This document shows, one piece after another, positions 17,981 through 23,418 of a stretch of 64,000 bases of DNA; the stretch's first letter is position 1; each line of letters begins with the position of its first letter. The DNA comes from Luteolibacter sp. Y139 (lineage in GTDB: Bacteria > Verrucomicrobiota > Verrucomicrobiia > Verrucomicrobiales > Akkermansiaceae): contig NZ_JBBUKT010000004.1 in assembly GCF_038066715.1 (NCBI RefSeq), positions 186,001 through 250,000 on the forward strand, read 5' to 3'. The position numbers and the translations under genes were made by a program. The notes beneath the pieces were generated by a model. That model worked only from the letters and a program-made list of their open reading frames with translations. It searched no databases and was not told where the DNA came from.

Positions 17981-18700
17981 CTACTCCGGCCACTTGATGT
18001 CGGGTGCCTTTCCTCCCCAATAAGGCTGGCGGGGATCGAAGATGTTCATGCCTCCGATGATAACGTCGCCGTTCTTGTCGATGGTTTCAGGCCGAGCCGA
18101 GCCGTCGATGCGTAGAACGACGGCTTTTCCATTAAATGGCTTGGGATCGAACTTCCAAGTGCCTGGGATGACGGGGACCAGGAGCACGGGTGCGTTAGGA
18201 TCGGAGGAAGTGGAGAGGCCGGCGATGTAGGTGAAGGCGCACTCGCCTTTCTTCAAGGCGTCCGCTCCCAGGACGTCGTTTCCCTTGCGCGGGGTTCCTG
18301 CGGTCTTGGCCCAGAAGATCTTCTCGCTCTTGTAGGTGCTTGTGGCGATCAATTGGCGGAGCAGGTCATTGGAGCTGCTGGTGCCGAGTGAGAGTGTGGT
18401 GGCGGTTGCGGCCTTGACGGCAGGGATGGTCGAGGCGTTTGGAAATGAGCCGTAGTCATTGTCGAAGTCGATCAGTTCCAGGTTGACCTGCTTGATGTTA
18501 TTGATGGCTTCAGTGCGGTAGGCTGGCCCCTTCGGCCTGTGGATGACCGTAGCCGTAAGAAAGCCTAACAGCAGGAGGACAACGCAGCCTCCACCGCCCC
18601 AGAGGATGCATCCCATCTTCCGCCGCGATTCCAATGCCTCCGGCCCGGGCGGTGGGGCGGGAGCATCGGGTGGTGGCTGCGGTGGCAGATGAGGTTCCAT
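17981..18700 (-). CDS. Pilin-like-ectodomain membrane protein, paralogue A
   Basis: 239 aa, one of five paralogues. The order is a Pro-rich cytoplasmic start (residues 1-20), a basic patch ESRRK, one transmembrane helix (about 28-50), then AINNIKQVNLELIDFDNDYG and SFPNASTI, which resemble the helix and loop of type II secretion pseudopilins. LLRQLIA, SEKIFWAK, GADALKKGECAFTYIAGL and VVLRIDGSARPETI follow, ending DPRQPYWGGKAPDIKWPE. The DGS string recalls the '(F/V)xDGSV' element of PVC prepilin-like proteins. There is no prepilin-peptidase motif. Lies 17 nt downstream of paralogue B. Function unknown. Confidence 0.85.
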   Translation of the reverse strand: MEPHLPPQPPPDAPAPPPGPEALESRRKMGCILWGGGGCVVLLLLGFLTATVIHRPKGPAYRTEAINNIKQVNLELIDFDNDYGSFPNASTIPAVKAATATTLSLGTSSSNDLLRQLIATSTYKSEKIFWAKTAGTPRKGNDVLGADALKKGECAFTYIAGLSTSSDPNAPVLLVPVIPGTWKFDPKPFNGKAVVLRIDGSARPETIDKNGDVIIGGMNIFDPRQPYWGGKAPDIKWPE

Positions 18701-18717
18701 CGTGAGATGCGCAGGGA

Positions 18718-19434
18718 TTACTCCGGCCACTTGATGTCCGGCGGCTTGCCGTGCCAGTAGGGTTGGCGGGGGTCGAAGATGTTCATGCCGTGGATCATGA
18801 CGTCGCCGTTTTTGTCGATGTATTCGGGTTTGGCCGAACCGTCGATGCGGAGGACGACAGCCACCCCTTTGAAGGGCTTGGGATCGAACTTCTGTGTCCC
18901 GGGAATGACGGGGGCCATCAGCACGGGAGTGTCGGTATCGCTCGAGGTGGAAAGTCCGGCGATGTAGGTGAAGCCGCACTCGCCTTTCTTCAGGGCATCC
19001 GCTCCCAGGATGTCGTTTCCCTTGCGCGGGGTTCCGGCGGTCTTGGCCCAGAAGATCTTTTCGCTCTTGTTGCCTGTGGCGATCAATTGGCGGAGCAGGT
19101 CATTGGAGCTGCTGGTTCCGAGTGAGAGCGCGGTTGAGGTTGCGGCTTTGACGGCGGGGATGGTCGAGGCGTTCGGAAAGGAGCCGTAGTCGTGGTCGAA
19201 CTCGATCAACGCCAGGTTGACCTGCTTGACGTTGTTGATGGCCTCGGTGCGATCGGATGCCTTCCTTGACCTGAGAATGACCGGAGACGAAAGGAAGCCT
19301 AACAGGAGGAGGGCAGCGCAGCCTCCGCCGCCCCAGAGGATGCACCCCATCTTACGGCGTGATTCCAATGCCTCCGGGCCGGGCGGCGGAGCGGGAGCAT
19401 CGGGTGGTGGCTGAGGTGGCAGGTGGGGTTCCAT
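18718..19434 (-). CDS. Pilin-like-ectodomain membrane protein, paralogue B
   Basis: 238 aa, the closest relative of paralogue A. Long stretches are nearly identical at the DNA level, for example around 18979-19110 against 18241-18375, pointing to recent tandem duplication or gene conversion. The transmembrane helix is GGGGCAALLLLGFLSSPVIL. Compared with A it has one residue fewer in the variable ATGN/ATSTYK segment before KSEKIFWAK, and SDTDTPVLMAPVIPG in place of SDPNAPVLLVPVIPG. Same minus-strand operon, 17 nt between genes on both sides. Confidence 0.85.
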   Translation of the reverse strand: MEPHLPPQPPPDAPAPPPGPEALESRRKMGCILWGGGGCAALLLLGFLSSPVILRSRKASDRTEAINNVKQVNLALIEFDHDYGSFPNASTIPAVKAATSTALSLGTSSSNDLLRQLIATGNKSEKIFWAKTAGTPRKGNDILGADALKKGECGFTYIAGLSTSSDTDTPVLMAPVIPGTQKFDPKPFKGVAVVLRIDGSAKPEYIDKNGDVMIHGMNIFDPRQPYWHGKPPDIKWPE

Positions 19435-19451
19435 CGGAGGATGCGCAGGGA

Positions 19452-20168
19452 CTACTCCGGCCACTTGATGTCGGGAGCCTTGCCGTGCCAGTAGGGCTGG
19501 TGGGGATCGAAGAGGTTCATGCCGTTGATCATGACATCGCCGTTCTTGTCGATGGGTTCGGGTTTTGCCGAGCCGTCGATGCGGAGGACGACCGCCTTTC
19601 CTTGGAAGGGTTTTGGATCGAACTTCCACGTGCCGGGGATGACGGGGGCCAAGAGCACGGGGGCGTTCAGATCGGAGGAAGTGGAGAGGCCGGCGATGTA
19701 GGTGAAGGCGCACTCGCCTTTCTTCAAGGCGTCGGCTCCCAGGATGTCGTCTCCCTTACGCGGAGTTCCTGCCGTCTTGGCCCAGAAGATCTTCTCGCTC
19801 TTGGTTCCCGCGGCGATCAATTGGCGAAACAGGTCGTTGGAGGTTTTGTTGCCTAGGGCGAGTGTGGTGCTTGTAGCTGCCTTGACTGAAGGGATCGTCG
19901 AGGAGTTTGGGAAGGTGCCGTATTCGTTTTCGAAGTCGATCAGGGCCAGATTGATTTGCTTGATGTTGTTGGTGGCTTCGACGCGGTCGGCAGCCATGGG
20001 TGATTTGTGGATGACGGGCCTGCTTAGGCCGGCGAGTGCTGACACGAGCACGCAGCCTCCGCCGATTTTGAGGATCCATTTCATCTTGCGTCGCGACTCC
20101 TCCGCCTCCGGGCCCGGCGGTGGAGCAGGGGCGTCGGGTGGTGGCTGCGGCGGGAGAGTGGTTTCCAT
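19452..20168 (-). CDS. Pilin-like-ectodomain membrane protein, paralogue C
   Basis: 238 aa and first gene of the C-B-A operon. The ectodomain keeps all conserved blocks (ATNNIKQINLALIDFENEYG, KGECAFTYIAGLSTSSD, KPEPIDKNGDV, WHGKAPDIKWPE) but the membrane segment differs (KIGGGCVLVSALAGLSRPVI). Its start codon is 94 nt from the divergent transglutaminase start at 20263, so this gap carries the promoter for both directions. The C-terminal half is closer to A than to D or E. Confidence 0.85.
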   Translation of the reverse strand: METTLPPQPPPDAPAPPPGPEAEESRRKMKWILKIGGGCVLVSALAGLSRPVIHKSPMAADRVEATNNIKQINLALIDFENEYGTFPNSSTIPSVKAATSTTLALGNKTSNDLFRQLIAAGTKSEKIFWAKTAGTPRKGDDILGADALKKGECAFTYIAGLSTSSDLNAPVLLAPVIPGTWKFDPKPFQGKAVVLRIDGSAKPEPIDKNGDVMINGMNLFDPHQPYWHGKAPDIKWPE

Positions 20169-20262
20169 GGGCCTTGGTTAGTTTTCATGATGAGCCGGTT
20201 TCACGCAAGTTCGCTCGACGTCGTTTGCACATTTCCGCGACTGGGCCGAGGATGGCGGCGTC

Positions 20263-21108
20263 ATGCCATTCCAAATCCACGCCGAGCTTCACTATCAGGT
20301 CCTCCAGCGCACCACGGTGCTCCTGAACCTGCACGCGCTGGCGACGGCGAATCAGAAGCTCTCCGACGAGTCCTTCCAGATCACTCCCGGCGTGGCGTGG
20401 GAGGAGCTGCCGATCGAGACCTCGGGGGAGAATCGCTACATCCGCCTCGATACGGGCGACGTGACCGAGCTGGATATCACCTATTCGGTGACCGCGGAAA
20501 CACGGCACGAAATGGTGAGCCATGAGGCTCTCCATGACTTGTCGGTTTCGCAGATTCGCCGCTCTGCGCTGCCGTTTCTTTTTCCCAGCCGCTACTGTCA
20601 GTCGGATCGCTTGGGGAAACTCGCAGGGAAGGAATTCGGTGGCATCGCCCATCCCTACGATCAGGTGGTGGCCATCACCGACTGGATCTTTGAGAACATC
20701 GACTATCTCTCCGGCAGCACCGATGCCGGGACCTCGGCGTTCGATACGGTGACGCAGCGCGCCGGGGTGTGCCGGGACTTCGCGCATCTCGGCATCGCGC
20801 TGTGCCGGGCGCTGTCGATTCCCGCGCGCTACTTCACCGGCTACGCCTGCGACATGCAGCCGCCGGATTTCCATGCCTGCTTCGAGGCATGCATTGGGAA
20901 TCACTGGATCATCTTCGATCCCACCCGGCTTTCAGCGCTGAATGGCCTCGTCCGCATTGCCACCGGCCGCGATGCGGCGGACGCGTCGGTCGCCACGATC
21001 TTCGGGAAGATGCAGCTCACGGGAATGATGGTATCTTGCACCTCACCGGATTTCCAACCGCTTGGCCCGGATGACTTGGCGGGGCAAGCCATCGTGCTCG
21101 ACTCATGA
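20263..21108 (+). CDS. Transglutaminase-like protease domain protein
   Basis: 281 aa, no signal peptide, so cytoplasmic. An N-terminal beta-rich domain (residues 1-110) typical of bacterial transglutaminase-like proteins is followed by the papain-like core. The triad is visible as Cys in QRAGVCRDFAHLGIALC, His in PPDFHACFEACIG and Asp in WIIFDPTRLS. Family members are mostly peptidases or amidases rather than cross-linking enzymes. Its stop overlaps the start of the next transglutaminase by 4 nt. The pair sits between paralogues C and D of the pilin-like family and points against them. Confidence 0.9.
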   Translation: MPFQIHAELHYQVLQRTTVLLNLHALATANQKLSDESFQITPGVAWEELPIETSGENRYIRLDTGDVTELDITYSVTAETRHEMVSHEALHDLSVSQIRRSALPFLFPSRYCQSDRLGKLAGKEFGGIAHPYDQVVAITDWIFENIDYLSGSTDAGTSAFDTVTQRAGVCRDFAHLGIALCRALSIPARYFTGYACDMQPPDFHACFEACIGNHWIIFDPTRLSALNGLVRIATGRDAADASVATIFGKMQLTGMMVSCTSPDFQPLGPDDLAGQAIVLDS

Positions 21109-21992
21109 GTGACAGCCATCTGCTGAAGATCGTCCACCGCACGCACTATCGCTATGCGGCGCCGGTGACCTTTCAGACGCACCGGCTGGTGATTCGTCCG
21201 CGCGAGGGGCATGACCTGCGGGTGGAGAGCCTGCTGCTCGGCATCACGCCGCAGGCGGATGTGACGTGGACGCGGGACATCTTCGGCAACTCGGTGGTGC
21301 ACGCGCATTTCCGCGAACCGGGCGAGGAGCTGAAATTCGATGTGGAGGTGGTGGTGCGGCGCTTCTTCGATCCCGATGCCCCGCCGCTGAATGTGCACAG
21401 CCCGAGTCCCTATCCGCTGGAATATGATACGATGGAGCACGGCATCGTGGTCGGCTACTTGACGCCGGTGTTTGGCGAGGAAACGGCGGCGGTGAAGGAC
21501 TTTATCGGCACGCTGCCGAATCCCGGCGACTTCCCTAGCGCGGAGGCTTTCGTGCTAAAGCTGGCGGAAATCATTCACGAGAAGATCGGCTACGAGCGCC
21601 GTGAGCAGAAGGGCGTGCAAACGCCGGCCACGACGCTCTCACTTGGCACCGGATCATGCCGCGACGTGGCCACGCTGATGATGGAGACGCTGCGGCAGCT
21701 CGGCATCGCGGCACGGTTTGCGAGCGGCTATCTCGATTGTCCGGCGACCCGTGCGGCGCGGGGCTCCACGCATGCATGGACGGAGGCGTACTTTCCGGAG
21801 CTTGGCTGGTGTGGCTTCGATCCGACCACTGGGCGGCGTTGCGATCACCGGCACATCGTCACCGGCACGAGTCATCATCCACGCGGTGTGATGCCGGTGA
21901 GTGGTCGCTACTTCGGGGCGAGCGGTGCGTTTCTCAGCATGAACGTGGCGGTGGAGTTTTCGACGCCGGAGGCAGCTACTCTGGCCACTTGA
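21105..21992 (+). CDS. Transglutaminase-like protease domain protein
   Basis: 295 aa, same architecture as its upstream partner: beta-domain N-terminus (LKIVHRTHYRYAAPVTFQTH, RLVIRPREGHDLR) and catalytic core with Cys in GTGSCRDVATLMMETLRQLG, His in STHAWTEAYFPELGW and Asp in GFDPTTG. This is the canonical bacterial 'YxYxxPV...RLxPR' transglutaminase layout. The two genes are coupled (ATGA overlap). The 3' end overlaps convergent paralogue D by 17 nt. In other bacteria such pairs accompany alpha-E and ATP-grasp genes; none is present here. Confidence 0.92.
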   Translation: MSDSHLLKIVHRTHYRYAAPVTFQTHRLVIRPREGHDLRVESLLLGITPQADVTWTRDIFGNSVVHAHFREPGEELKFDVEVVVRRFFDPDAPPLNVHSPSPYPLEYDTMEHGIVVGYLTPVFGEETAAVKDFIGTLPNPGDFPSAEAFVLKLAEIIHEKIGYERREQKGVQTPATTLSLGTGSCRDVATLMMETLRQLGIAARFASGYLDCPATRAARGSTHAWTEAYFPELGWCGFDPTTGRRCDHRHIVTGTSHHPRGVMPVSGRYFGASGAFLSMNVAVEFSTPEAATLAT

Positions 21993-22692
21993 GGTCGGGC
22001 CGCCTGCCGTGCCAGTGCGGCAGGCTTGGGTCGAAAAGAGTCTTGCCACCGCCGATCACTACTTTGCGGTCGGAGGATCGAATGGTCTCGGGCTTGGCAG
22101 AGCCATCGATCCGCAGGATCACCGCCTTTTCGGCGAAGACATTGGGATCAAACTGATAGGAGCCCCGGATCATCGGGGTCATGACGACCGGAGTTGCGGG
22201 ATCATCCGAGGAGGTGAGCCCCGGGATGTAGGCAAAGGAGCACTCGCCCTTCTTCAAGGCATCGGAACCAAGAACTTCATTGGGTTTGCGAGGAGTGGCC
22301 GGGATGGGAGCCCAGAAGATCCTTTCGCTCTTGTTTGATGCAGCGATCAATTGGCGGAAGTAGTCGTTGGAAGTGGTGGTGCCCAAGGCCAAGGTGGTGT
22401 GGGTTTTGGACCGGACATCGGCGATCGTGGTGTCGTCGGGGAATCGGCCGTAGTCCGCATCGAAGTCGATCAAGGCGAGATTGAGCTGCTTGATGTTGTT
22501 GATCGCTTCGGTGCGCTCTGTTGCCTTCTTTGATCTGAAAATCACCGAGGCCAGAAAGCCGAAGACCACCATCAACGAGAGCGTCCCGACCACGAACAAG
22601 AGGAGAATCTTGGTCCTCGATGCTCTCACCTCCGGTCCCGGCGGTGGCGCGGGAGCATCGGGCGATGGCTGGGGCGGGAGGTGGGGTTCCAT
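21976..22692 (-). CDS. Pilin-like-ectodomain membrane protein, paralogue D
   Basis: 238 aa. Keeps the Pro-rich N-terminus, but the membrane helix is LLFVVGTLSLMVVFGFLASV, and the ectodomain is more divergent: ADYGRFPDDTTIADVRSKTH, DYFRQLIAASNKSERIFWAP, KGECSFAYIPGLTSSDDPAT, VILRIDGSAKPETI, ending WHGRRPDLKWPE. Separated from paralogue C by the two transglutaminase genes, and 12 nt downstream of paralogue E, so D and E form their own operon. Confidence 0.84.
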   Translation of the reverse strand: MEPHLPPQPSPDAPAPPPGPEVRASRTKILLLFVVGTLSLMVVFGFLASVIFRSKKATERTEAINNIKQLNLALIDFDADYGRFPDDTTIADVRSKTHTTLALGTTTSNDYFRQLIAASNKSERIFWAPIPATPRKPNEVLGSDALKKGECSFAYIPGLTSSDDPATPVVMTPMIRGSYQFDPNVFAEKAVILRIDGSAKPETIRSSDRKVVIGGGKTLFDPSLPHWHGRRPDLKWPE

Positions 22693-22704
22693 GAGGACAC
22701 GCGA

Positions 22705-23418
22705 TTACTCCGGCCATTTTAGGTCGGGTGCCTTGCCGTTCCAGTAGGGTTGGCTAGGATCGAAGAGGTTCTTGCCGTTGAGGCGCACTTCGTTGGTATC
22801 GGTCTTGATTGGCACCGGCATGGCGGAGCCGTCGATACGAAGTATGACGGCCTGGCTGTTGTAAGGATCAGGATCGAAGCGCGTGGTGCCGGGAATCATT
22901 GGCGCCATGGCGATGGGAGTTTCGGGCTCATCATTGCCGGAAAGGCCGGCGACATAGCTGTGGATGCACTCGCCTTTGGCCAGCGCGTTGTCGCCGAGGA
23001 TGTCGTTGGGCCCCCGGCGATTGTCCAAGACCGGAGCCCAGAAGAGTTTTTCGCTGGTCTTTCCGTCGGCGACGAGTTGGCGGAAAAAATCGTTCGAGGT
23101 TCGAGTTCCCAAGGCAATCGTGGTGCCGGTGGCGGCTCTCACACTTGCGATGGTGGAGGTATCCGGGAAGCGGCCGTAGTCCTGGTCGAACTGGGTCAAC
23201 TCTAGGTTGATGACTTTCAGGCTGCTGAGCGCAGAGGTACGATCAGCAGCGGGACTCTTCATGATATAGAGCGCTGCAACGACAGCCACGAGCGCCACTG
23301 CCAGTAGCACCGAGATTACGATCTCAAGCTTCGAAAGGCGAAACTTGCGAGTCTCCGGCTCGTCTTGCCGGGCACGGTCTGCCCCGGATGGCATATCAGG
23401 CAGACCGGAGGAGCTCAT
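22705..23418 (-). CDS. Pilin-like-ectodomain membrane protein, paralogue E (most divergent)
   Basis: 237 aa from ATG 23416-23418. The Pro-rich start is replaced by a polar one (MSSSGLPDMPSGADRARQDE), then a basic stretch and the helix KLEIVISVLLAVALVAVVAA. The ectodomain conserves LKVINLELTQFDQDYGRFPD, NDFFRQLVADGKTSEKLFWA, ALAKGECIHSYVAGLSGND, VILRIDGSAMP and PYWNGKAPDLKWPE. It is probably the first gene of the E-D unit and perhaps closest to the ancestral form. A GC hairpin (23442-23465) separates it from proS. Confidence 0.83.
   Translation of the reverse strand: MSSSGLPDMPSGADRARQDEPETRKFRLSKLEIVISVLLAVALVAVVAALYIMKSPAADRTSALSSLKVINLELTQFDQDYGRFPDTSTIASVRAATGTTIALGTRTSNDFFRQLVADGKTSEKLFWAPVLDNRRGPNDILGDNALAKGECIHSYVAGLSGNDEPETPIAMAPMIPGTTRFDPDPYNSQAVILRIDGSAMPVPIKTDTNEVRLNGKNLFDPSQPYWNGKAPDLKWPE

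Follow-up and report, generated by a model that had tools for sequence, protein, structure and literature searches.

Anchored pilin-like paralogs without a prepilin cleavage site, and a helix matched to the prepilin of the same genome, in Luteolibacter

Five paralogous genes of Luteolibacter sp. Y139, here A to E, encode single-anchor membrane proteins with a predicted pilin-like fold and no prepilin cleavage site; they lie in the window, the stretch of 64,000 nucleotides analysed here. Across the family to which they belong, the helix that follows the membrane anchor resembles that of the one true prepilin of the same genome more closely than those of other genomes, and one face of this helix has evolved together with the pilin of the same genome, which suggests, judging from sequence comparison, that these proteins still work together. 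The reading that we place first, with about an even chance of its being right, is that A to E, as anchored and uncleavable pseudopilins, attach to the processed pilin or to a common partner. They would then exemplify, in bacteria and apparently from several origins, the turning of a filament subunit into a fixed membrane part through loss of its cleavage site, and would illustrate that interaction partners can be brought to light by co-evolution between paralogs.

Organization of the five paralogs

As the initial annotation had it, five paralogs of 237-239 amino acids stand in two blocks, on which open reading frames, coordinates and full-length alignment agree. The blocks, C-B-A and E-D, run head to tail with spacers of 12-17 bp and are separated by two plus-strand genes for transglutaminase-core proteins (Table 1). 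Protein identity among A to E is 48-85%, with every pair aligned over its full length, and the homology of the tandem copies is far above chance (profile E 1e-121 to 1e-140). Their alignment has 84 invariant columns, which include the KGEC, LRIDGSA-type and C-terminal KWPE motifs already noticed, and one transmembrane (TM) anchor was found in each protein, as had also been proposed; we infer a cytosolic N-terminus and a periplasmic ectodomain. A and B had been called nearly identical at the DNA level, which is wrong, their identity being 84.5% and dS 0.52. The proposed absence of a prepilin cleavage site holds for all five: the PF07963 (N_methyl) model matches none of them, yet does match their prepilin homolog in the same genome (the C9 prepilin, described below), and by inspection, too, the motif is absent, the anchor of E retaining only a prepilin-like remnant (LSKLE, in LSKLEIVI). 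To call the five an undescribed family cluster was fair in so far as no Pfam or NCBIfam model above its cut-off covers them; nor was a description of the family found in the open papers searched. The proline-rich tail, searched in its own genome, has good matches among family members only, all others having E values of 0.01 or worse.

Table 1. Positions of the paralogs, their helices and related or neighbouring features (window positions unless a contig or locus is named).
Feature	Position	Strand	Remarks
Paralog A, 239 aa	17981-18700	-	Proline-rich tail (inferred cytosolic), TM anchor, predicted pilin-fold ectodomain
Paralog B, 238 aa	18718-19434	-	AlphaFold model md27ccb0fddd2
Paralog C, 238 aa	19452-20168	-	Opens the C-B-A block; 17-bp spacers
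Paralog D, 238 aa	21976-22692	-	Clusters with same-site members of G008 and G011
Paralog E, 237 aa from ATG	22705-23418	-	Frame open to 23454 with a TTG start
Genome-matched helix of A	18440-18517	-	RTEAINNIKQVNLELIDFDNDYGSFP
Genome-matched helix of B	19174-19251	-	RTEAINNVKQVNLALIEFDHDYGSFP
Genome-matched helix of C	19908-19985	-	RVEATNNIKQINLALIDFENEYGTFP
Genome-matched helix of D	22438-22515	-	RTEAINNIKQLNLALIDFDADYGRFP
Corresponding helix of E	23164-23241	-	RTSALSSLKVINLELTQFDQDYGRFP
Transglutaminase-core protein (PF21295 + PF01841)	20263-21108	+	Between the blocks; probably outside the system
Second transglutaminase-core protein (PF08379 + PF01841)	21105-21992	+	Probably outside the system
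True prepilin of the same genome, single rph-linked copy	C9:202.5-203.3 kb		Carries GFTLVELLVVIVIIAALAG; matches N_methyl
Cys-rich tandem-unit protein loci	L050 13819-14214, L051 6378-6995, L049 3372-3896		

Predicted fold and known pilin families

AlphaFold models of B and of the C9 prepilin (pLDDT 96 and 92, respectively) are alike in the order of their elements, a long α1, two short helices and then strands. Among the best VIA-align matches of B are EpsG (Z 5.0), PilV (4.8) and the gonococcal pilin (3.7), and the C9 prepilin matches PilA4 (6.3) and PilV (5.0), Z-scores that are modest (5-6 at best); Foldseek against the PDB gave no match with E below 0.001 and is not significant alone. Despite the modest scores, pilins and pseudopilins are consistently the top structural matches, which, together with shared descent, leads us to predict that A to E are pilin-like in fold. 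The earlier description of the five as pilin-like proteins without a cleavage site was therefore right, given the predicted fold, the processed-type homolog in the same genome and the tree considered below.

Among the processed relatives that the genome encodes, this homolog, the C9 prepilin, stands closest (45-49% identity with B, C and D, and the same predicted fold), but it has GFTLVELLVV and an N_methyl match and is without the proline-rich tail, the KGEC motif and the KWPE terminus. GspG major pseudopilins (TIGR01710; EpsG structure 4lw9) share the predicted fold with A to E, show weak profile similarity and include the best structural match, whereas A to E remain below the family cut-off (88.85 bits, the best score being 16.5 bits for E), have no cleavage site and differ in their C-terminal half. 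With the DUF1559/SBP_bac_10 (PF07596) and H-X9-DG prepilins, comparison groups from Planctomycetes and Verrucomicrobia, the five have in common the helix motif NN-[LIV]-[KR]-Q and, at the equivalent position, a DG(S) strand. The match to DUF1559 covers the helix alone (~35 residues), without a prepilin signal in A to E, and stays under the PF07596 gathering cut-off of 23.3 bits (at most 19.9 bits among the five, with A and E unmatched); as for H-X9-DG, A to E have F or Y where H stands ten residues before DG, and the NCBIfam matches of 98 family members include no H-X9-DG model. Set against type IV prepilins and pseudopilins, A to E lack the class III (prepilin) cleavage and methylation motif and have, by prediction, the pilin fold (long α1, globular α/β domain).

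One true prepilin per genome and repeated change of the signal

The family is widespread in Luteolibacter/Haloferula-type verrucomicrobia. At least one member was found in 45 of 57 relatives, and 11 in the 7.1-Mb genome of Y139 itself, the one genome in which every member was inspected; a contig scan with strict patterns gave five loci only. An intact prepilin signal (GFTLVELLVV) is carried by 28 of the 116 members that come from fetched loci, exactly one in each of 28 genomes, and in all remaining members a plain TM anchor, a signal peptide (e.g., L044) or a DUF4190 hairpin (L046) takes its place. The prepilin gene adjoins rph (RNase PH) in 15 loci (e.g., L043 8528-10164), including all three examined in g3, a related genus with small genomes, and at rph it is isolated, outside any secretion operon; a described role for an rph-linked pilin was not found in open papers. 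The Y139 genome also encodes a Peptidase_A24 prepilin peptidase and T2SSF genes. A single prepilin accompanied by many uncleavable copies per genome counts toward anchored pseudopilins; against them, g3 genomes have one prepilin and no array, so the pilin can do without anchored partners. Within the window's genus there is also a 6.3-Mb genome (G006, locus L066) whose record title, Akkermansia muciniphila MAG, is probably a mislabelling.

Profile and tree join A to E to the rph-linked prepilins, and hence to processed-type prepilins by common descent. On the ectodomain tree the signal status switches about seven times, at least four of them on firmly supported branches, counts that give no direction by themselves. 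At rph in G003, G015 and G024, however, one intact copy stands beside tandem degenerate ones (with signals such as KGFNWGNALF and GFTKMELAVL), and this side-by-side occurrence points to loss of the signal. A, B and C form a local expansion and G011 has a separate four-copy expansion, while D and E each cluster with members from G008, D also with one from G011. One family copy in G008, beside the E ortholog, is a broken gene split over two frames (L047 12279-13021), and one in G010 is interrupted by a stop.

Selection on tail, anchor and ectodomain

Selection on A to E is purifying, with no signal of diversification. Synonymous and non-synonymous rates, whose comparison had been recommended, give an ectodomain dN/dS of 0.16-0.32 (about 0.2). 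The TM region is the fastest-evolving part (0.34-1.1 where measurable), and the proline-rich cytosolic tail of A to D is strongly conserved (dN 0.00-0.18), being constrained at least as much as the ectodomain, with only E differing there. Of the earlier statement that anchors and N-termini vary, the part on anchors therefore stands, and that on N-termini applies to E alone.

These rates bear on two other readings of the array. Surface variation or self-recognition, raised in the initial annotation, might be expected from tandem copies, lineage-specific expansions and the broken G008 copy, but the low ectodomain dN/dS carries no diversifying signal and the differences between genomes are matched within each genome instead of diversified, so that we consider this very unlikely. 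The repeated signal change and the two interrupted copies would equally suit decaying, functionless prepilin duplicates; with tail and ectodomain under purifying selection and the matched helices maintained, we give decay hardly any credence.

A helix matched to the prepilin of the same genome

The matched helix comprises the 26 residues after the TM segment (α1-C, alignment columns 57-82). It matches the prepilin of the same genome at 0.664, against 0.524 for those of other genomes (51 paralogs, ten genomes; label permutation p = 0.0005), and a second set, of six genomes, replicates this (0.700 against 0.611, p = 0.0018), both sets being small and the statistics free of a species-tree model. 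In the remaining ectodomain the excess is only 0.025 (0.422 own, 0.397 other). When labels are permuted inside three subclades only, the helix excess is 0.086, reached in 4 of 216 arrangements (p ~0.02). In G011, for example, the prepilin and the arrays share TEASQNIRQVHIAL; G015 and G009 provide further matched helices, KQISTMLFEFDSEYG and RQIGISLFEFDAEYG, respectively. With the helix columns left out, the tree splits prepilins from array members at 100/100, so a paralog is expected to be equally distant from the prepilin of every genome, and recent whole-gene descent does not explain the match. The per-column excess rises and falls with the turn of a helix (100 degrees; p = 0.014), and the matched face points 172 degrees from the conserved one; judging from the pilin fold, the conserved residues should lie against the globular domain of the protein itself, leaving the matched ones turned toward a partner. 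Multimer assembly is the part of the earlier reading that the helix matching favours.

Matching extends to other architectures. The helix excess is 0.106 in signal-peptide forms and 0.154 in DUF4190 fusions, although the remaining ectodomain of the latter is barely recognisable, and polytopic proteins also match their own genome, the permutation for DUF4190 and polytopic proteins drawing on all 28 genomes and so being looser than the genus-limited tests, which carry more weight. Ordinary prepilins, three from other genomes and 15 others from Y139, show no such matching. Polytopic or long proteins with a short helix like the prepilin helix of their genome occur at L125 (G026), L123 (G008) and L124 (G024), that of G026 containing KQIYLLLMD, identical to its prepilin.

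Conversion between tandem paralogs is common in general, and the helix match might be no more than functionally meaningless concerted evolution by gene conversion among the tandem paralogs present here. Among 210 codons for strictly genome-specific residues, 132 agree where codon usage would predict 111, a slight excess that leaves room for older exchanges. Conversion after the genomes split, however, should give a codon identity at shared residues of at least 0.76, the prepilin orthologs having 0.762 in the same columns, and the observed value is 0.58 (0.582 within and 0.573 between genomes), which makes recent conversion unlikely; the second set repeats this, with 0.49 own, 0.49 other and 0.70 among prepilin orthologs. 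A serine in G011 is AGC in the prepilin and TCG or TCA in the arrays, G028 shares 24 helix residues but only 7 codons, and matching is confined to one side of the helix. All told, we hold conversion to be improbable as the source of the match.

Somewhat less doubtful, if still unlikely in our estimate, is that the helix face is recognised by a third partner common to all these proteins, be it an assembly platform, a chaperone or a quality-control protease, the proteins tracking it independently and never touching one another. This would accommodate a match that spans unrelated architectures, from DUF4190 hairpins and secreted forms to polytopic proteins like that at L125; yet the loci show no linked partner gene, and the ordinary prepilins that lack matching are expected to use a similar platform.

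A possible role as anchored pseudopilins

If A to E are instead anchored pseudopilins, they would have arisen by duplication of a true type IV prepilin, in this genome the rph-linked C9 copy, and, having lost the prepilin-peptidase site, should have kept the TM anchor; the peptidase, we infer, cannot release them, so they would remain in the membrane. Their periplasmic pilin domain may use α1-C to contact the processed pilin, one another or a partner common to all, and the matched face of α1-C would pack onto the processed pilin, or bring the paralogs onto each other around it. Such a set, fixed in the membrane and not extractable from it, could act as the base or dock of a short pseudopilus or regulate its length or assembly, and the conserved proline-rich tail of A to D could recruit an assembly factor. 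The matched helix would then predict which proteins bind the rph-linked pilin, whose gene is conserved across the family. We put forward more tentatively, and with less than even confidence, that the helix face is a genome-specific recognition code, by which the pilin and the anchored, secreted, DUF4190-hairpin and polytopic proteins that match it assemble only together; were this so, species-level drift of one pilin would force parallel change across unrelated architectures.

The archaellum offers a parallel, its stator being made of the archaellin duplicates ArlF and ArlG, filament-subunit duplicates that kept the fold and the N-terminal TM helix and became stationary envelope components of that machine (PMC8667602). 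The likeness is in the way of working and is not one of membership: ArlF and ArlG are archaeal and belong to one known machine, with ArlG cleaved on secretion, whereas the family described here is present in many copies within a genome, seems to have arisen several times and has a helix face matched to its genome.

Neighbouring genes

The two transglutaminase-core genes between the blocks could in principle belong with the array to a single crosslinking system. They are found within or next to it in seven genomes (G000, G003, G008, G009, G011, G012 and G015), but transglutaminase orthologs occur without a nearby family member in G001, G002, G004, G006, G007, G016 and G027, and near-complete genomes, G014 and G017 among them, carry the family and not the transglutaminase gene. 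On this co-occurrence a functional linkage was rejected, a common crosslinking system appears extremely unlikely, and we treat the pair as neighbours only. Close to the array in three genomes is a gene for a Cys-rich, tandem-unit secreted protein (e.g., GKCKDGDCDKEEDPALA), and inside the G008 and G011 arrays is one for a single-TM protein without a Pfam match (L047 9443-10030 and L048 8258-8962).
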